Both the position numbers and the translations under genes were made by a program. Below the pieces are notes generated by a model, which worked only from the letters and a program-made list of their open reading frames with translations, was not told where the DNA came from and made no database searches. A DNA stretch of 37,001 nucleotides, taken from Pirellulales bacterium (GTDB taxonomy: Bacteria; Planctomycetota; Planctomycetia; Pirellulales; Lacipirellulaceae). The DNA is taken from contig JAKVCC010000017.1 of the NCBI GenBank assembly GCA_022448265.1, positions 69,498 through 106,498 of the forward strand. Reading direction: 5' to 3'. Below are positions 8,697-30,337 of this stretch, piece by piece (the stretch's first letter is position 1; the number at the start of each line of letters is the position of its first letter).

Positions 8697-9689
8697 CTAG
8701 CTGGCTTCCCGTTTGCGCTGGCCACCGCCCTGCAGAATTGCCTGCAGACGCTCAAATTCTTCGTTGCTTTTGAAGTGGATCGTGATGCGACCGCTTCCCT
8801 TGACCGTTTGGCGCAAATCTACCTTTGTGCCGAGGGCGAGCCGCAGCTGGCCCTCAAGTTGGGCTGCGTGGCTGCTGGCCGGTTTGGCGGCGGCGCGTGG
8901 GTTGCCCTCGGCATCAACGACCGACAACGGATCGCGATCCGCATGACGGATGTGTTCGCGGACAAGATTCTCTGTCGCCCGGACAGAGAGCGATTCCTGC
9001 TTGATCTGATCGGCGAACTGACGCTGTTCGTGTTCGTCGCCAAGCGGTAAGAGTGAACGCGCATGACCTTGGGATATATCGCCGTTGGCCACCATTTGTT
9101 TGATATCTTGGGGAAGCTCTAGAAGCCGGATGAGGTTGGCAATGGTCGATCGATCGATATGAATCCGCGCTGCGAGTTCTTCCTGAGTACACTCGTACTC
9201 CTGCAAATAGCGCTGGAAGGATGCCGCCTTTTCCAGGGCATTCAGGTCCTTGCGCTGCACGTTTTCCACGATGGCCAACTCCGCCATCTGACGATCGTCG
9301 ACCTCGCGAATTTGTACGGGTACCTGTTCCCAATTCGCCAACTTGGCCGCACGAAAGCGCCGTTCGCCGGCAATGATTTGGAATCCCTCGTCAGTCTTGC
9401 GGACGACGATCGGCTGCAGAAACCCGTGTGTGCGAATGCTATCGCAAAGATCGGTAATCTCCGATTCGTCGAAGTGCTTGCGGGGTTGGTAAGGGTTAGG
9501 TACGACAGACTCCAGAGGCAACCACTGTTGCGGGGCACTGCCTGAAGCGACGGATTCACCGCCCGCCGCGGAAGTGTCCTCGTCACGTACGACGCTCAAC
9601 CGGACCTCTTCGCCCACCTGGGCTACGGGTGGCGCGGGGCGTCCCAACAAAGCTTCCAAACCTCGTCCCAAACGTCTTTCCTTAGACAC
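8697..9689 (-). CDS. parB: ParB/Spo0J family chromosome partition protein
   Basis: DNA-binding CTPase that loads at parS sites and spreads as a sliding clamp to help segregate the chromosome. The 330-residue protein has the usual order: a variable N-terminus with LGRGLEALLG (8-17), box I NPYQPRKHF (about 62-70), the CTP-binding box GERRFRAAKL (about 107-116), VENVQRKDLN, then a helix-turn-helix region (TQEELAARIHIDRSTIANLIRL) and a C-terminal dimerisation domain. The start is GTG at 9689, and its first eight bases (GTGTCTAA) include the parA stop, so the genes are translationally coupled. parS-like sites lie just upstream of parA. Confidence 0.95.
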   Translation of the reverse strand: MSKERRLGRGLEALLGRPAPPVAQVGEEVRLSVVRDEDTSAAGGESVASGSAPQQWLPLESVVPNPYQPRKHFDESEITDLCDSIRTHGFLQPIVVRKTDEGFQIIAGERRFRAAKLANWEQVPVQIREVDDRQMAELAIVENVQRKDLNALEKAASFQRYLQEYECTQEELAARIHIDRSTIANLIRLLELPQDIKQMVANGDISQGHARSLLPLGDEHEQRQFADQIKQESLSVRATENLVREHIRHADRDPLSVVDAEGNPRAAAKPASSHAAQLEGQLRLALGTKVDLRQTVKGSGRITIHFKSNEEFERLQAILQGGGQRKREAS

Positions 9690-10428
9690 GTTCTAGCACC
9701 TCCTGGCATAGTTCCACGTAAGCTCGAGCGCCCCGCGATCGTGGGGCATAGTCGACCACCGAGCGTCCATGGCTCGGCGCTTCCGACACTGCGACATCAC
9801 GTGGTATTACATTCTGAAAGACAATCTCTCCAAAAAAATCGCGGACCTCGCGTTCGACTTCGACCGTGAGTTCCAAGGTGGCGTCGAACATCGTCAGTAA
9901 GATGCCACCAAATGTTAATCGGCTACCCGACCTGTCGATCACCTGTCGGATTACTTCGATCATCTGGGTGAGACCTTCCATCGCAAAGTACTCACACTGA
10001 ATAGGCATTAAGATTTCGCTAGCACTCGCCAGCGCAGTGCGGGTGAGCGGGCCCAGCGAGGGCGGGCAATCGATGAGAACGGTGTCGAATGATCCGAGAC
10101 TTCCCGCCAGATGGGTTGCCAGCATCGTCGAGTGGGCGTCGCTGCAGTTGGCTAGTGCATCGACATCCTGAAAGCTGCGCGATCCAGGAAGAAGCGACAA
10201 GCCGGGCTGATAGACATCGATGAATGATTCACGCAGCGGACGACTATCGACGAGCGCGTGTCGTTCGGTCGGTTGATGGCCAAGTCCGGTCGTAGCATTG
10301 CACTGCGGGTCGAGGTCGACCAACAGGGTTTTCTGGCCGGCGATCGTCAGGAGAACGGCCAGGTTCAGCGACGTGGTCGTTTTGCCGACGCCTCCTTTTT
10401 GGTTTGCAACACAAATGACTCGGCGCAT
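9682..10428 (-). CDS. parA: ParA/Soj chromosome partition ATPase
   Basis: Walker-type ATPase that binds DNA non-specifically and works with ParB to move origins. From ATG 10428 it has 248 residues, normal for chromosomal ParA/Soj. The deviant Walker A motif KGGVGKTT is at 11-18 in VANQKGGVGKTT, the Walker A' region is LLVDLDPQCN, and Walker B is VLIDCPPSLG. The open frame runs up to 10500 from a TTG, but those 24 extra residues lie outside the family pattern, in which the first strand begins at or next to the start methionine. No clear Shine-Dalgarno sequence is seen before the ATG. It overlaps parB by eight bases. Confidence 0.94.
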   Translation of the reverse strand: MRRVICVANQKGGVGKTTTSLNLAVLLTIAGQKTLLVDLDPQCNATTGLGHQPTERHALVDSRPLRESFIDVYQPGLSLLPGSRSFQDVDALANCSDAHSTMLATHLAGSLGSFDTVLIDCPPSLGPLTRTALASASEILMPIQCEYFAMEGLTQMIEVIRQVIDRSGSRLTFGGILLTMFDATLELTVEVEREVRDFFGEIVFQNVIPRDVAVSEAPSHGRSVVDYAPRSRGARAYVELCQEVLERV

Positions 10429-10547
10429 TGGATATTGGGATTTTGGGTTGCAAATGGGGGAGAAATTTTCCGGCGGAGGCTGACGCAGACGTCGCGGCAA
10501 CGAGTGGGGGACTATGGAGCCTATCGGTCACCGAGAGGCCGAAAAGG

Positions 10548-22103: not shown

Positions 22104-23141
22104 ATGCCTTTGAGACTAGCTGCGAGATTTGGGCTGTTGGGGGTATGGGTGGCTTTGGGCGGCGTTGCCGGCGGCGAACCCTTGGTCTATGAATCCGACA
22201 GCGGGGAAGGAAACCGCGGGCCCGGAAAGGGCATGCATTTAGTCTTTATTGCCAGCGATCACGAGTACCGATCAGAAGAAACCTTGCCTGCGCTGGCTCG
22301 ATTGCTTGCCAGGCACCATGGTTTTCGATGTACGGTGGTGTTTGGAGTCGACGAAAATGGTGCGATCCTTCCTGGGGCCAGCAACGTGCCTGGCATCGAG
22401 GCGCTCGACTCGGCCGATTTGATGGTCGTCTTTACGCGCCACCAGCGCTGGCCAGCAGATCAGATGCAGCACTTCGTCGACTATTTGAAGCGTGGTGGCC
22501 CCATTGTCGGGCTGCGGACCGCCACGCATGGTTTTAGCATTCCGCGAGACAGTCCCTTTGCCAAATACGGGGAAACTTATGACGGTGAAGACTACTTGGG
22601 CGGCTTCGGGCGTCAGATACTTGGCGAGACATGGGTCGGTCACCACGGCCACAATCATCGCTCAAGTACACGGCTTGATATCGTCCGCGAAAAGAGCAAC
22701 CACCCCATATTGCGCGGTGTCAAAGACATGTGGGTGCAATGTGGCGGCTACCATGCTGATCCACTGCTGCCCTGTGAAGTGCTGGCCATGGCCCAGCCGT
22801 TGGTGGGAATGGAGCAGGACTCGGGACCGGATAGGAACTTCAAACCTGTTCCCGGCGCGTGGACGCGCTCCTACCAAAGCGAATCGGGGACGGTGGGCAG
22901 GGTGTTCACTAGTACGTACGGAGCGTCCAACGATATTGAAAACGATGGCTTTCGCCGCATGCTGACCAATGGCTGCTTCTGGGCCGTGGGTTTGGAAGAT
23001 GCGATTCAAGATGACATGGATATAAGTTTTGTGGGACCCTACCACGCTACTTGGCGCCATGACCGAGGCGAGCGAAAAAAAGGCCTGAAGCCTCAGGACC
23101 TGGCCGGTTGGGATGCCCCAATCGTGCCCTTGGAGCCGTAA
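22104..23141 (+). CDS. Secreted ThuA-like protein
   Basis: A 345-residue secreted protein of the ThuA-like (trehalose utilisation) family, a glutamine-amidotransferase-like fold whose bacterial role is unclear. From ATG 22104 it has a signal peptide (LAARFGLLGVWVALGGVAGG, about 5-24). The mature part begins with HLVFIASDHEYRSEET, the family's opening strand and loop, followed by VDENG, DLMVVFTRHQRW and GGPIVGLRTATHGF, where this family keeps a nucleophile-like position without the catalytic Cys. CGGAGG lies before the start and fixes it; the open frame up to 21843 runs through a 29-bp duplication and is not coding. It is the first gene of a tight operon. Confidence 0.86.
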   Translation: MPLRLAARFGLLGVWVALGGVAGGEPLVYESDSGEGNRGPGKGMHLVFIASDHEYRSEETLPALARLLARHHGFRCTVVFGVDENGAILPGASNVPGIEALDSADLMVVFTRHQRWPADQMQHFVDYLKRGGPIVGLRTATHGFSIPRDSPFAKYGETYDGEDYLGGFGRQILGETWVGHHGHNHRSSTRLDIVREKSNHPILRGVKDMWVQCGGYHADPLLPCEVLAMAQPLVGMEQDSGPDRNFKPVPGAWTRSYQSESGTVGRVFTSTYGASNDIENDGFRRMLTNGCFWAVGLEDAIQDDMDISFVGPYHATWRHDRGERKKGLKPQDLAGWDAPIVPLEP

Positions 23142-23172
23142 AAGGTCGATTTATAGTGGAGCAACTTGGTTG

Positions 23173-26100
23173 ATGAAGATACCGGACCATCTTTTGCGCA
23201 CGTTGGTCGCCCTCGTCCTACTAAGTGCTTATCAGCACGCCTCCGCCCAATCGCTTACCAGTAAGCTGCGGGAAGAGGGAGCCGCGCGTCTTGCCAAGGC
23301 CGCGACCGAAGAGGGAAGCGCGGCACGTGGGGCTATCTTATTTCCTCAACAAAAACTGCAGTGTGTTCGTTGCCATGTGGCGGGACACACCGATGTTTTG
23401 GGGCCCGACCTGACCCGCCTAGGGACAGATGTTTCCAGCGAATCGCTTGTCGAATCGCTGCTCAACCCGTCTAAGGTCATTGCTAAGGGATTCGAAACGT
23501 CTGTCATTACAACAATCGACGGAGTTTTAATCGTCGGGCAAATTATCAGCCAGGACGATAAGCGAATTCTCGTCCGCGTCGCCAGTGAACCAACCAAGAC
23601 GCAGACGATCCCGGCGGCAGACATCGACGAGACCGTATTGAGTAAGACGTCGTCCATGCCGGACAACCTTCCGGACCAACTGAATAGCCGGCAGGAGTTT
23701 TTGGATCTGGTCCGCTATCTAATGGAGATCGCAGATAGCGGGACGCCGACCGCATCGGAGGGGCAACCTTCCGGCGGAGGCGCGATCAGCCTACAACACC
23801 AGGGATTGTTGCTGCTCGACCGGTTCAACTGCGGCGCCTGCCACGAGGGCAAGTGGCAATATCCCAACCGCGCGCCTCATCGCGGACCGAATTTGAAGTG
23901 GTGCGCCGAAAATGTGGATCCGTCCTTTATTGGGCGCTATATTGCAAGTCCAGCCCATGAAAAACCGGCAGCGAGAATGCCGCACCTGTTGGGCCGATTC
24001 GATGCTGCGACCCGCGCTGAGGCGGCCCGCGCGATTACCCATTACGTTGTCGCTTTCGGTGACACGCCTTTTGCTCGCCAGGCGCGGGATCGTGTTGCCG
24101 CGCGGCGTGGCCAGGAACTATTCCACTCAGTGGGTTGTGTCGCTTGTCATTCACCGCGCGACGAGGCGGGCCAAGAAATCCTGCCTGAATCGTCTGAACC
24201 GCTGGGCAACCTGGACGGGAAGTACAGCGTCGCTGGGCTTACCAAATTTCTCTACGATCCGCATGCCTCCCGGCCGGAGGGTCGCATGCCCAGCATGCGG
24301 CTAACCTATTGGGAATCACGCGATATCGCAAATTATTTACTTCAAGAGAACCAGCTTACCGGCCGTTTGCGCTATACTCTCTACGAAGGAAAAATGCACG
24401 AGGGTTTCGATCGTCTGGCTGGAAAAGCGACCGCGGCGGGAATCGCCGGGGCGTTTTCCCTCGCACCTTTTGAAGCCTATCGCCATGATTTTGCCGTCGT
24501 TTTTGACGGATATCTGGAGTTGCCCGAAGCCGGGTCCTATGTTTTTGCGCTGAATTGCAACGACGCTGGACGGCTCGTCATCGACGGCAAAACGCTTATT
24601 GACTTGCCAGCCCAACCGGGTGACCAGGCGCAGTCAGCCGAGGTCCGTACGGAACTCGCTTCCGGCATGCATGCCATTCAGTTGAGTTACCTCCAGTTGC
24701 AAAAAAAATCACAGTTGGACCTTCGATTTCAGGGTCCAGGTCGAGTGCGCGGTCCGGTGCCCGAGAGCATGCTTTCTAGTCACGCCCAGTCGATTATCGC
24801 GACGCCACCTTTTCGTGTTGATTCAGACTTGGCGCAAAAGGGCGAAGCCCTGTTTCGCCAAATCGGGTGCGCGGCCTGCCATCAGGTAGATGGGGCTGCT
24901 GTTGTGTCAGAGCGACCGGCAATCCCTATCGAAGATGCTGCGGGTGGTTGCCTATCCGAGGAGTCGGGCGATTGGCCGCAGTTTGCCATGAAGCCTGCGG
25001 AGCGCGAATTGTTGCGATTGGGCTTAGGGGCGGATGCGGGCGCGCTCACCGGCGAGGAGCAGATCGCAACGACGATGACCAGGCTTGCGTGTTTCGCCTG
25101 CCATCAGCGGGATGGCTTGGGCGGCGTTGCCCTCCAGCGGGACCAATACTTCCGCAGCGCCGATGCCAATCTGGGGCCGCAGGGCAGAAGCCCTCCGCAC
25201 CTGACGGGCGTTGGTGCCAAGCTCAAACCAGCTTGGCTCCGAGACGTGTTAGTCAACGGGCGATCCATTCGTCCGTATATGCATACACGGATGCCCCAAT
25301 ACGGATCGGAGAATGTCGCCCATTTGATCGATTTGTTTGCCCGTATCGATGACTTGCCAGAAGTTGAATACGAAGGAATTGCCGATTTAGCCAAGGCCGG
25401 AGAGATCAGTACAGAGCTAGTCGGCAGTGACGGTTTAAATTGCGTCGCCTGCCACACTTTTCAGAAGCGGGCGGCCCAAACTATGTCGGCGGTCGATTTG
25501 ACGGAGATGGGGGAGCGGCTTAACAAGGAATGGTTCTTCCATTACATGCTTGATCCGCAGCGGCTGGGCCCGCGCACGGTGATGCCTTCGTTTTGGCCTG
25601 GCGGTCGTGCCATCCGACAAGACATTCTGAAGGGCAGTGTTGCCGGTCAGATCGAACACATTTGGCATTACCTGCAAGACGGGCGGCAGGCCCGTTACCC
25701 GCACGGCTTGCGGTTCGATCCCTTCGAGCTAATCGCCACCGACGAAGCAATCCTGCTGCGTCGTAGTTTTGAGGAGACCGGCAAGCGTGGAATCGGTGTT
25801 GGCTACCCGGCTCAGGTCAACCTGGCCTTTGATGCCGAGCAGATGCGGTTGGCGATGATTTGGAAGGGAAAATTTGCCGACCCTGCGCACGTATGGTTTG
25901 GACAGGGATCTGGGCATGCCCGCCCTGCCGGTGATCCACCGCTACATTTTTCCAAGGGGCCCGATCTTGACGACGCTGCGAATCCATGGGTCGTCGACGA
26001 GGGGCGACCCCCTAAACACCAATTTACCGGCTACTATCTTGATGCGCTGCGCCGGCCGACCTTTACGTATCGCTTTGAAGATGTTGATGTGGAAGACTAT

Positions 26101-26376
26101 ACGATCGACGTGCGCCGGAAAGATGCGGTTGTATTGCGGCGAGTATTGACGTTCCGGGCCGTCAAAGAGCGCGACAACCTCTTGTTTCGAGTTGCCTCCG
26201 GGGAGACGATTCAGCGATCCGAGGACGCAGAATATCAGGTCGGCGAAGACCTCCGTATCCGGCTGATAGGTGGCGTGAATGCAAAAATCGAAACTACCTT
26301 GACCGACCAGCGATTGATGGTTCCGGTCGTTGCAACCAAGGACAAATCGACCCTGGTCATTGAATACATTTGGTAG
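23173..26376 (+). CDS. Secreted hexahaem cytochrome c with PA14-like domain
   Basis: A 1067-residue exported protein with a signal peptide (LLRTLVALVLLSAYQHASAQ, cleavage near 26). It has six CxxCH c-haem motifs at about residues 64, 220, 322, 566, 640 and 757. The first belongs to the putative haem-binding domain of the Pirellula/Verrucomicrobium type (LNPSKVIAKGFETSVI is its typical segment). Between haem motifs 3 and 4 (about 400-530) lies a PA14-like beta domain (GYLELPEAGSYVFAL, then DDGGRLVIDG-like NDAGRLVIDG), a fold often carbohydrate-binding. A long beta-rich region with no haem follows 757. Its likely place is the periplasm or cell surface, in electron transfer. It lies 31 bp after the ThuA gene and 6 bp before the beta-propeller gene. 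Confidence 0.87.
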   Translation: MKIPDHLLRTLVALVLLSAYQHASAQSLTSKLREEGAARLAKAATEEGSAARGAILFPQQKLQCVRCHVAGHTDVLGPDLTRLGTDVSSESLVESLLNPSKVIAKGFETSVITTIDGVLIVGQIISQDDKRILVRVASEPTKTQTIPAADIDETVLSKTSSMPDNLPDQLNSRQEFLDLVRYLMEIADSGTPTASEGQPSGGGAISLQHQGLLLLDRFNCGACHEGKWQYPNRAPHRGPNLKWCAENVDPSFIGRYIASPAHEKPAARMPHLLGRFDAATRAEAARAITHYVVAFGDTPFARQARDRVAARRGQELFHSVGCVACHSPRDEAGQEILPESSEPLGNLDGKYSVAGLTKFLYDPHASRPEGRMPSMRLTYWESRDIANYLLQENQLTGRLRYTLYEGKMHEGFDRLAGKATAAGIAGAFSLAPFEAYRHDFAVVFDGYLELPEAGSYVFALNCNDAGRLVIDGKTLIDLPAQPGDQAQSAEVRTELASGMHAIQLSYLQLQKKSQLDLRFQGPGRVRGPVPESMLSSHAQSIIATPPFRVDSDLAQKGEALFRQIGCAACHQVDGAAVVSERPAIPIEDAAGGCLSEESGDWPQFAMKPAERELLRLGLGADAGALTGEEQIATTMTRLACFACHQRDGLGGVALQRDQYFRSADANLGPQGRSPPHLTGVGAKLKPAWLRDVLVNGRSIRPYMHTRMPQYGSENVAHLIDLFARIDDLPEVEYEGIADLAKAGEISTELVGSDGLNCVACHTFQKRAAQTMSAVDLTEMGERLNKEWFFHYMLDPQRLGPRTVMPSFWPGGRAIRQDILKGSVAGQIEHIWHYLQDGRQARYPHGLRFDPFELIATDEAILLRRSFEETGKRGIGVGYPAQVNLAFDAEQMRLAMIWKGKFADPAHVWFGQGSGHARPAGDPPLHFSKGPDLDDAANPWVVDEGRPPKHQFTGYYLDALRRPTFTYRFEDVDVEDYTIDVRRKDAVVLRRVLTFRAVKERDNLLFRVASGETIQRSEDAEYQVGEDLRIRLIGGVNAKIETTLTDQRLMVPVVATKDKSTLVIEYIW

Positions 26377-26382
26377 GTAGCT

Positions 26383-27948
26383 ATGAACATCTTTTTTTTG
26401 CGATGGAGTTGCAGTCTCCGAGAGTTTTCCATTCGGCGATCGACGGTGGACGCAAGATTTGCCTGCAACGGGCTGGCACTTCTACTTGTCGCCGCTAGTT
26501 TTCTAGTCGTGGGGAGTGCGGGCGCCAATACACTGGGGGAATACTGGGGAACAGCCGAAAAAGAAGCCGAATATTATCCGGTTGTCGACGTGCAAGTCCC
26601 GGAGGAGATGGCGCTGGAAGCGGGTAGTTTTGAGGTGCTGCCAGATAACCGACTGGCCGTCGGTACGCGCCGGGGCGAGATTTACCTAGTAAGCGGGGTT
26701 TTTGACGAGAATCCCCAGCCTCGCTTTGAACTGTTTGCGCGCGGCCTTGATGAGGTGTTTGGCCTCAGTTACCGCGACGATGCGTTTTACGTGACGCAAC
26801 AAACCGAAGTCACACGAATTACCGATACCAATCAGGACGGCCGTGCCGACCGATTTGAGACTTTGAGTGACGTGTGGGGATTTAGGAACTATCACGAGTA
26901 TGCATTCGGATCGAAGATGGATCCCGAGGGCAATATCTGGGTTGCCCTGTGCCTGACGCATTCCTTTAAGTCGGAAGTGCCATTTCGTGGCTGGTGCCTG
27001 AAAGTCACTCGCGACGGCAAGGTAATTCCCGTTTGCAGCGGAATGCGGAGTCCTGGCGGGGTTGGGCCGAATGAGCACGGGGTGATGTTTTACACGGAGA
27101 GCCAAGGTCCATGGAACGGTTCCTGCTCGCTCAAGGTTCTGCAGCAGGGGGCCTTCATGGGAAATCCGATCAGTTTTAATTGGTACGATCTGGCTGAACA
27201 GATGGAGCGGCCCAAAGTCGAACCCAACACACCATCGCGCCTGGTGACCGAATGTGAACGGGTCAAAGAGTTGGTACCTTACGCAGTGGTTTTTCCTTAC
27301 AGGAAGGCCGGACGTTCGCTGTCGGGCTTTGTGGTCGATCGTACAGGCGGAAAGTTTGGGCCGTTTGAGAACCAGATTTTTGTCGGCGACTTTAGTCTTA
27401 GTATTGTCATGCGGGCCACTACGGAAAAGGTGAACGGGGTGTGGCAGGGGGCCTGCTATCCCTTCCGGGAGGGCCTTGCCACCGGATTACTCGCTTGTGA
27501 ATTCACGCCCCGCGGCGATTTGATTGTTGGCGGAACGAATCGCGGTTGGCCCGTTCGTGGGCCCGATGCCTTCGCGGTGCAGCGGCTCGACTGGACGGGC
27601 ATTGTGCCGTTTGAGATCAAGTCTATCCAAGCTCGTCCGAATGGCTTTCGTGTGACGTTTACGAAACCCGTGGCGGCCGATGTGGCGGGCGATCCCAGTG
27701 TGTATGATGTTTCGACGTACACGCATATCTACCAGGAAGGGTACGGTAGCCCGGAAGTCGACCAAACTTGGCCCCGCGTGGCCAAAGCCACGGTTGCCGA
27801 GGACGGTTTGACGGTAGATTTGGAGATCGATGGACTCGTGAAGGGGCACGTCCACGAATTTGATCTTGCTCCCATACGGTCGCGTGATGGGGATAAATTG
27901 GTTCATGTTAACGCCTACTATACGTTGAATGAGATTCCCCGCGAGTAG
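26383..27948 (+). CDS. Secreted beta-propeller protein, sorbosone dehydrogenase-like
   Basis: A 521-residue exported protein. A long N-terminus has a hydrophobic segment at about 30-50 (LALLLVAASFLVVGSAGA), after a basic stretch, so the true start may be later than ATG 26383. The body is a beta-propeller like those of glucose/sorbosone dehydrogenases and membrane-bound dehydrogenase domains of planctomycetes: VLPDNRLAVGTRRGEIY, TDTNQDGRADRFE (an EF-like aspartate loop) and GGTNRGWPVRG are visible. A C-terminal beta domain (about 410-510) follows. A PQQ-type cofactor is not proven; no PQQ-binding residues were identified. Being 6 bp after the hexahaem gene, it could donate electrons to it. Confidence 0.82.
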   Translation: MNIFFLRWSCSLREFSIRRSTVDARFACNGLALLLVAASFLVVGSAGANTLGEYWGTAEKEAEYYPVVDVQVPEEMALEAGSFEVLPDNRLAVGTRRGEIYLVSGVFDENPQPRFELFARGLDEVFGLSYRDDAFYVTQQTEVTRITDTNQDGRADRFETLSDVWGFRNYHEYAFGSKMDPEGNIWVALCLTHSFKSEVPFRGWCLKVTRDGKVIPVCSGMRSPGGVGPNEHGVMFYTESQGPWNGSCSLKVLQQGAFMGNPISFNWYDLAEQMERPKVEPNTPSRLVTECERVKELVPYAVVFPYRKAGRSLSGFVVDRTGGKFGPFENQIFVGDFSLSIVMRATTEKVNGVWQGACYPFREGLATGLLACEFTPRGDLIVGGTNRGWPVRGPDAFAVQRLDWTGIVPFEIKSIQARPNGFRVTFTKPVAADVAGDPSVYDVSTYTHIYQEGYGSPEVDQTWPRVAKATVAEDGLTVDLEIDGLVKGHVHEFDLAPIRSRDGDKLVHVNAYYTLNEIPRE

Positions 27949-27978: not shown

Positions 27979-28029
27979 ATGTTAAAAGTCGCGATTACTG
28001 ATTACACGTTCCCGTGCGACGGCTGGTAG
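27979..28029 (+). pseudogene. First codons of a 2-hydroxyacid dehydrogenase
   Basis: ATG 27979 opens a 16-codon frame that begins MLKVAITDYTFP, the characteristic start of CtBP-like D-2-hydroxyacid dehydrogenases (residues about 1-12). After TTC CCG it runs into unrelated sequence and a TAG at 28027-28029. At that point an E2 acyltransferase sequence begins in a different frame, so the rest of the dehydrogenase has been lost. Confidence 0.55.
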
Positions 28030-28317
28030 ACCAGGCGGTGTCAGGCGTCCTGGATCACGATCAATTAGCCGGTGGCACGTTCACGGTCACAAATCTCGGC
28101 AAGTTCGACATCGACTACTTCACACCTATTATTAATTTGCCGCAGACGGCTATTTTAGGCGTTGGGCGAATCGCTGATGAGCCTGTCGTGGTGGAAGGTA
28201 AAGTGGTAGCCGGTAAGACGATGGCCCTGAGTTTGACCTTTGACCATCGTGTTGTCGACGGCGGCCCGCTGGTTGCAACAACTGGGCAAAAGGATCCAGC
28301 AACTGATTGCAGATTAA
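28014..28317 (+). pseudogene. 3' fragment of a 2-oxoacid dehydrogenase E2 subunit
   Basis: The frame from 28014 encodes the end of the catalytic domain of dihydrolipoamide acyltransferases: GGTFTVTNLGKFDIDYFTPI, NLPQTAILGVGRI and the active-site motif SLTFDHRVVDG. The lipoyl and E3-binding domains and the first half of the catalytic domain are absent. Just after the active-site motif the frame is broken: the natural C-terminus (ARWLQQLGKRIQQLIAD, stop 28315-28317) lies in another frame. Both truncation and frameshift show it is dead. No E1 or E3 genes are in the window. Confidence 0.82.
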
Positions 28318-28414
28318 GGCGCCGTGTGAGACAAAGCGACACGGACGAGACAGTTTTTCCATTCTTCCGGGCATAATCGAGATCGGCCCTTTGTTGCGAG
28401 CACACCACAACCGA

Positions 28415-30337
28415 ATGCAAGTCAAAAGAATTCAGTTGAGGGCGGCCCTCCTGTCGTTGGCCCTATTGTTTCTGGGCCTCGGTTGTCGAGAAACACAACC
28501 TTCTTCGGTGGGCAGTCCTTCGGCTATCCCAGCGGTTGGCGATCGTGGCGAACCCGCAGCAACAGCAATCCCGCAAGTCACGTCAACAAACTATATCGGC
28601 AGTGAAGCGTGTGTCGAGTGCCACCAGGAGATCACTGATCAGTACCGCGGCCATTCGATGGGCCGCTCGCTGGCACCGGTGATGCAGGCCGAGCCGGTCG
28701 GGCCGGCCAAGGGTTCCGCGTCGGATACGCCTGGCAACAAGTCTTTTGTTGCAGGTGGATTCCGCTATGAAGTACTGGAGCGTGAGGGCAAGGTATTTCA
28801 CCGACAAAGTCGCGTCACCGACGAAGGGGCCGAAATGGCCGTTATCGAGCAGGAAGTCCATTACGCGGTCGGGTCGGGGCAGCATGGTCGCTCCTATTTG
28901 GCGAATCGGGACGGCTATCTTTTTTTGTCACCAATTACTTGGTATCCGGAAAAGGGCATTTGGGATCTGTCGCCCGGATTTGAAAAGGTCAACTCGCAGT
29001 TCAATCGTCCAGTCATTGAGTCGTGCCTGTTCTGTCATTCGCATCGGCCGTTACACGTCCCGCACACGGCGAACCGGTACTCGGACCCTGTTTTTGACGG
29101 CCATGCCATTGGCTGCGAGCGTTGTCACGGACCGGGCCGGCAACACGTGCAGAAGCACCGTGAGGGCCAAGTCATAGACGCCGGCGCAGACGAAATCGTC
29201 AACCCAGCCCATTTGCCGCCACGCCTACGCGAAGCAGTATGCCAGCAGTGTCATCTTTCGGGTGTGGCACGCGTGTTACAGCCCGGATGCTCCCTGCAGG
29301 ATTTTCGCCCTGGGCAGCCATTGGAGTCATGTTTTTCTACCTTTGTCCTGCGGCCCGACACGTCCAAAGAAAACCCGTTTGTCGGGCAGGTCGAGCAGAT
29401 GGTCGCGAGCCGCTGTTTTCAGGCCAGCGATGGCAAGCTGGGATGCATTTCTTGTCACGATCCCCACGGTTTGCCGGCACCCGAGGCGAGGATCGAATTT
29501 TATCGCAATCGATGTTTGCGCTGCCACGCTACGGATGCATGCGATCTGGACGAAACCGCGCGCCAAAAGGCGGCCGACAATAGTTGCATGGCCTGCCATA
29601 TGCCTCGCCGCGATACTGAGGTGCAGCATGCCGCGATGGTCGATCACCGGATTCCACGTCACGGGGCAGAAGCGTTGCATGAGAAACCGGCCAGCCAGGT
29701 CGATAGCCTAGCGATGCCCATCGTGCGTTTTGGAAGCACTCTGGCGCCACCACTGGTGGACCGCGACCTAGCGATCGCCCTGATGATGGCGACCGATTCA
29801 CTGCCAAAGGCCATGCGGTCGGATCTTCAAAGGCGCGCGTTGACAACGTTGGAGCAAGTCGCGCGGGACGATCCCGACGATTTGCCCGCCCACGAGTATT
29901 TGGGGCAGGCCTATCTGGCTGAGGGTCGGGCTCGCGAGGCAATTACCGTCTTGGACCACGTGCTGCGGCGTCAACCCGGACGAGAGGTCAGTTTAGCGGT
30001 GATGGCCGATCTGATTGGCGCGATGGGTGACCATGGGCAGGCCATTCAATACTGGAAGCGCGCAATTGACGTGAATCCGTGGATGTCCCGGTACTGGTAT
30101 GGCCTGGCCAAAGCCCATGATCGGAGCGGTCAGTGGATGCAGTGCCAGGAGACAGCCCGGCAAGCAGTTCTTCGTTTTCCCACCAGCATGGGTGCCCGCC
30201 ACTTGCTCGTCGAGAGCTATTTAAGGTTGGGGCAACCCGCGCGTGCCGAGGAGGCGTTTGAGTGGATCCTACGGTACAAGCCGCGCGGTTTGGATGCCCT
30301 ATCCAAGTGGTACGAGTCGCATCCCCTGCGACGCTAG
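28415..30337 (+). CDS. Heptahaem c-type cytochrome lipoprotein with TPR repeats
   Basis: A 640-residue predicted lipoprotein. From ATG 28415 the signal ends in LGLGC (lipobox cysteine 24), with upstream frame residues to 28307 discounted. Seven CxxCH c-haem motifs occur at residues about 66, 204, 234, 276, 344, 367 and 391; the second is followed by SHRPLH. The pattern resembles multi-haem cytochromes of the c554 type. From about 500 to the end there are tetratricopeptide repeats (AHEYLGQAYLAEGRAREAI and later a repeat around HLLVESYLRLGQPARAEEA), likely a protein-protein surface. It would be anchored outside the cytoplasmic membrane and pass electrons. It lies 98 bp after the E2 remnant. Confidence 0.87.
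   Translation: MQVKRIQLRAALLSLALLFLGLGCRETQPSSVGSPSAIPAVGDRGEPAATAIPQVTSTNYIGSEACVECHQEITDQYRGHSMGRSLAPVMQAEPVGPAKGSASDTPGNKSFVAGGFRYEVLEREGKVFHRQSRVTDEGAEMAVIEQEVHYAVGSGQHGRSYLANRDGYLFLSPITWYPEKGIWDLSPGFEKVNSQFNRPVIESCLFCHSHRPLHVPHTANRYSDPVFDGHAIGCERCHGPGRQHVQKHREGQVIDAGADEIVNPAHLPPRLREAVCQQCHLSGVARVLQPGCSLQDFRPGQPLESCFSTFVLRPDTSKENPFVGQVEQMVASRCFQASDGKLGCISCHDPHGLPAPEARIEFYRNRCLRCHATDACDLDETARQKAADNSCMACHMPRRDTEVQHAAMVDHRIPRHGAEALHEKPASQVDSLAMPIVRFGSTLAPPLVDRDLAIALMMATDSLPKAMRSDLQRRALTTLEQVARDDPDDLPAHEYLGQAYLAEGRAREAITVLDHVLRRQPGREVSLAVMADLIGAMGDHGQAIQYWKRAIDVNPWMSRYWYGLAKAHDRSGQWMQCQETARQAVLRFPTSMGARHLLVESYLRLGQPARAEEAFEWILRYKPRGLDALSKWYESHPLRR

Follow-up and report, generated by a model that had tools for sequence, protein, structure and literature searches.

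Why should a gene-free gap of 466 bases, lying between two intact genes of a Pirellulales bacterium, hold the start of one enzyme gene joined to the end of another? The window (the whole stretch of 37,001 nucleotides analyzed here) belongs to contig C9 of a draft genome that totals 3.64 Mb over 87 contigs. Upstream of the gap, an intact gene (26383..27948, plus strand) encodes a DUF7133/PVC-type putative beta-propeller-like protein of 521 amino acids (Pfam PF23500, E 1.2e-7), which matched NCBIfam TIGR02604 weakly and under its cut-off and has no CxxCH motif. This gene forms a pair (together spanning 23113–27948 of the window) with that for a large protein carrying a PA14 domain and six CxxCH motifs. 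Downstream lies an intact gene (28415..30337, plus strand) for a TPR cytochrome with seven CxxCH motifs, identified by Pfam TPR and Paired_CXXCH matches and by motif count, and likely a lipoprotein given a signal-like N-terminus judged by eye. Its listed TTG start at 28307 overlaps the remnant described below, and the ATG at 28415 appears more plausible. Elsewhere in the window, a parA/parB-like pair (ParB and AAA_31 matches) occupies 8697–10500 on the minus strand.

The gap opens with an ATG at 27979, 30 nt past the stop of the DUF7133 gene. The frame from this ATG reads MLKVAITDYTFP (remnant A, 27979..28014, plus strand) and corresponds by translation, by the N-termini of relatives and by profile score to the first 12 codons of a CtBP-like D-2-hydroxyacid dehydrogenase. 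Sequence of a 2-oxoacid dehydrogenase E2 takes over at about 28014, in a different frame. The peptide fits the N-terminal start pattern of the CtBP-like dehydrogenases (PF00389/PF02826) of the gene cluster described below; the NAD-binding and catalytic domains are absent, leaving these 12 codons. On a start profile built from the N-termini of 14 intact cluster dehydrogenases, which themselves scored 30.6–38.6 bits, the peptide reached 32.9 bits. Because the runner-up among the 2,829 start codons of the window scored −0.3 on the same profile, the start at 27979 is judged to be a real dehydrogenase start, with chance excluded. More than half of its score was attained by 17 of 148,973 starts in the collected loci, comprising 12 cluster dehydrogenases (one duplicated), four copies of the scar site itself and a single start, at 17.2 bits in locus L045, that belongs to neither group.

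The remainder of the scar derives from an E2 catalytic domain, of which it holds the C-terminal part as far as the DHRVVDG motif (remnant B, 28014..28263, plus strand). Pfam PF00198 matched 28014–28373 at model positions 129–212 of 232 (E 3.6e-32; 112 bits against a cut-off of 23). Together with the translation and the start profile, this match bears out the proposal of the initial annotation that a CtBP-like dehydrogenase start is fused to an E2 C-terminal domain at about 28014. Remnant B was 67–71% identical to the E2 proteins of loci L037, L038 and L039, and at most 69% identical to matches in whole-genome searches. It shares catalytic-domain positions 129–212, DHRVVDG included, with PDH-type E2 proteins but is N-terminally truncated and frameshifted. 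It has no lipoyl domain and no E3-binding domain and is missing roughly the N-terminal half of the catalytic domain, whereas the E2 of L037 contains lipoyl, E3-binding and catalytic domains. No complete E2 in one open frame is present, and by its sequence the remnant is a pseudogene rather than a working member of the family.

A second lesion lies just past DHRVVDG, as had been suspected. Alignment with the E2 genes of L037, L038, L041, L045 and L047, all intact, placed a single gap of 8 nt between 28263 and 28264 (plus strand). The E2 frame is lost there, and the tail (28264..28317, plus strand) continues as ARWLQQLGKRIQQLIAD-stop, sharing its frame with the ATG at 27979 and reaching its stop at 28317. 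Among 132 distinct E2 stretches of the collected loci, the frame stays open for at least 14 amino acids beyond the motif in 129; the other three were not scored, one lying at the end of its stretch and two having a variant motif. With a first, stricter spacer pattern past the motif, 92 of the 132 showed the expected spacing, five a longer one and 35 no match. The short E2 frame (28014–28376) could in principle encode a functional mini-protein, since it runs open from a GTG through 120 codons and retains DHRVVDG. We consider this extremely improbable: compared with the E2 of L037 it has neither a lipoyl nor an E3-binding domain, some half of the catalytic domain is gone, and the final ~36 residues are out of the E2 frame. 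A functional mini-E2 was rejected on the missing essential domains and the out-of-frame end.

Both pieces were traced to a single cluster in relatives, taken from the best 80 of 322 loci found by scanning species genomes with the remnant and from whole-genome searches. A cluster dehydrogenase was scored at 45% identity or more, with its start included, upstream of the E2 and on the same strand. After extension of the regions, 22 of 89 rows, representing at least 21 distinct loci, had such a dehydrogenase upstream of the matching E2 on one strand; under a stricter cut with regions not yet extended, 15 rows (14 distinct loci) did so. Two of these loci (L099 and L112) have verrucomicrobial record titles, and the other 19 are planctomycete by record title or come from genomes of the order of the window. 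The L037 cluster (L037:950–10306) consists of a divergent GntR regulator, the CtBP-like dehydrogenase, an FAH hydrolase, a cyclase-like protein with two PF04199 cyclase stretches, an MFS transporter, an SDR, a fused E1 alpha-beta and the E2. The fused E1 is one ORF of 674 amino acids in L037, and a single tblastn match spanned both E1 halves in all 22 rows. With L037 as the query, the E1 of the at least 21 cluster loci showed at least 63% identity.

The cluster is variable in its makeup. The points joined in the scar lie 4.8–11.0 kb apart in the at least 21 intact loci, and 6.4 kb apart or less in L099, L112, L068, L120, L122 and L123. In the last four of these the FAH hydrolase is present, and the cyclase-like, MFS and SDR queries found no match between dehydrogenase and E1. 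The remaining 67 of the 89 rows had scant upstream sequence, a more distant dehydrogenase (34–38% identity, including Chloroflexi and Gemmatimonadota), no dehydrogenase, or another E2 type. Locus L202 (G390), which has one of the two E2 proteins nearest to the remnant, retains SDR, E1 and E2 with no recognizable CtBP-like dehydrogenase in 13.7 kb upstream; none was found in 19.1 kb upstream of L203 (G330) either. Clusters therefore vary in their first gene, which is not always this dehydrogenase. In G368 (L182) the contig ends before the dehydrogenase position could be judged. Across L118, L202, L203, L216 and L217, E1 and E2 are kept and no CtBP-like dehydrogenase was recognized within 8–19 kb upstream; an SDR (61–66% identity) precedes E1 in four of the five.

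The scar comprises the two ends of this one cluster, in the same order and on one strand as in intact relatives. Compared with the planctomycete clusters of L037 and L184, it matches the start of the first gene and the end of the last but lacks all middle genes. It also lacks the GntR gene, which in several relatives stands divergently and directly before the dehydrogenase; none lies between the scar and its upstream neighbor. Since the start of a first gene is joined to the end of a last gene, a large internal deletion within one operon follows. The scar is thus very probably a double pseudogene, left when most of an operon running from a CtBP-like dehydrogenase to a fused E1 and an E2 was deleted at this site. 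The ancestral operon would have led from the dehydrogenase through FAH, cyclase-like, MFS and SDR genes, in one of their various combinations, to the fused E1 alpha-beta and the E2; which middle genes stood in the lost copy we can only infer. The deletion would have removed ~5–11 kb, most likely ~8–11 kb (the estimate for the fuller cluster type), beginning at codon 12 of the leading gene and ending midway through the E2 catalytic domain, and a further deletion of 8 nt would have disrupted the E2 tail.

The initial annotation had envisaged a single internal deletion through a cluster of dehydrogenase, E1 alpha, E1 beta and E2 genes. Gene order, common strand and joined ends agree with that proposal; the cluster proved larger, with FAH, cyclase-like, MFS and SDR genes, and in it E1 alpha and beta are fused into one gene. 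One event is the simplest reading of the main loss, to which the 8-nt gap adds a second lesion. Nucleotide comparison with the CtBP-like starts and E2 stretches of relatives placed the deletion junction at 28011..28017 (plus strand), to within a few bases. The ends were presumably joined illegitimately, with homology playing little or no part.

Own-genome searches with E2, E1, dehydrogenase and cyclase-like queries found no second copy of the cluster. The nearest CtBP-like dehydrogenase showed 36% identity and the nearest E1 39%, and no cyclase-like gene was found at E 1e-20. The idea that the cluster had moved to another place in the genome was rejected, as none of these four queries gave anything close. 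A look for other E2 genes, as recommended at the outset, returned two (on C23 and C4), with 48% and 39% identity to the remnant. An E3-like gene, recognized from sequence, adjoins the E2 gene on C4. As two E2 genes persist, one particular complex has been lost and not oxoacid dehydrogenation as such.

Remnant B is well preserved. It breaks none of 33 E2 columns that are at least 90% conserved in the best 60 relatives, 27 of which themselves break at least one. Decay has accordingly been slight, and loss of the operon was probably recent. The same preservation would fit an intact gene that was mis-assembled, and offers no independent sign of long decay. A metagenome assembler might have collapsed or mis-joined the ends of an intact cluster, and the draft state of the genome, with its 87 contigs, lends this some weight. 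Several observations make such an artefact very unlikely. No 12-, 15-, 18- or 21-mer starting in 27991–28040 recurs within the window, which disfavors a repeat-driven collapse, and by eye the CtBP-like starts and E2 stretches of relatives share no long stretch at the junction. The E1, cyclase-like and dehydrogenase genes are absent from the rest of the assembly, and a mis-join leaves the separate 8-nt frameshift unexplained.

The distribution of the cluster in the genus was assessed by its E1, since an E2 cut-off of 1e-24 misses the known own-family cluster holders G014, G024 and G027 and so cannot prove absence. None of 13 same-genus genomes had a cluster-like E1 above 40% identity: the best matches were 38% in G009 and 40% in G010, and the other 11 gave nothing at E 1e-40. 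Among their E2 proteins the remnant matched none better than at 48% identity (E 2.5e-18), and no cyclase-like gene was found in them at E 1e-20. The E1-like match in G009 (L222, G009:C38:3577–5610) spans both halves at 38% identity with three internal stop codons, and represents either two adjacent genes or one broken gene. The suggestion that a whole complex locus was lost from this lineage consequently holds for one genome; a genus-wide loss is unsupported.

An intact cluster between the propeller and heptahaem genes had been anticipated in relatives; none was found in any relative examined. The propeller gene pairs with an upstream cytochrome gene in several other families and in the same-genus genome G009, with no cluster genes near the pair within the regions fetched. 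With up to 20 candidates scored per genome, the heptahaem gene was matched (E 1e-20) in six of 58 other genomes, and as a flank it appeared in none of the 13 same-genus genomes and in one genome of the family (G034). Because so few relatives retain these flanks, the missing synteny does not refute loss in place.

These patterns also bear on whether the operon was ever whole at this site. A fragment already deleted elsewhere might have arrived by horizontal transfer along with a flank. In a tree of 82 E2 residues, the remnant groups with L145 and L153 (G368 and G390, family f15), with local supports of 0.74–0.82 on the nested branches leading to a 22-member clade and 0.66 on the next. The 19 listed members of the enclosing clade include no own-family E2. 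This grouping, the lack of a cluster-like E1 in the genus and the scarcity of the heptahaem flank would suit such a transfer. The tree of so few residues is weak, however, and the propeller gene pairs with cytochrome genes elsewhere without cluster genes, leaving the flank untied to the remnant. We hold transfer of a fragment to be unlikely and retain deletion of an operon that once stood here. The tree would allow horizontal arrival of that operon before its loss, without proving it.

Some indication of what was lost comes from the intact clusters. The MFS transporter lies nearest to D-galactonate and 4-hydroxyphenylacetate permease models, and the FAH hydrolase to a 2,4-didehydro-3-deoxy-L-rhamnonate hydrolase model, all under curated cut-offs. 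Together the components suggest that the operon may have served to take up and degrade a sugar acid or aromatic acid, a PDH-like complex performing the last step. Our literature search on planctomycete pseudogenes, oxoacid dehydrogenase clusters and the enzymes of the cluster, part of which was judged by title, returned no described pathway for the operon; in the main text of PMC6461901 the terms 'pseudogene', 'deletion' and '2-oxoacid' do not occur. Speculatively, the operon might have come by horizontal transfer from a planctomycete of a different family, stood immediately behind the propeller/cytochrome pair and soon been lost, and might encode an undescribed pathway that combines sugar- or aromatic-acid uptake, FAH/cyclase hydrolysis of a ring or diketo compound and a dedicated oxoacid dehydrogenase; we rate this scenario as possible but doubtful.

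In kind, the scar is a genuine operon deletion and an ordinary bacterial gene loss; loss through an internal deletion, with a scar left behind, is an ordinary mechanism. Deletional bias operates in bacterial genomes, which contain deletion pseudogenes and operon remnants. Like these, the present scar combines an internal deletion joining first and last genes with a small frameshifting deletion. It differs in that both ends are recognizable and match one operon type, so that the size of the loss can be estimated. The scar directs attention to a conserved operon that has an oxoacid dehydrogenase of its own and of which we found no description in the literature, and provides a clear planctomycete case of whole-operon loss in which both ends are still legible.
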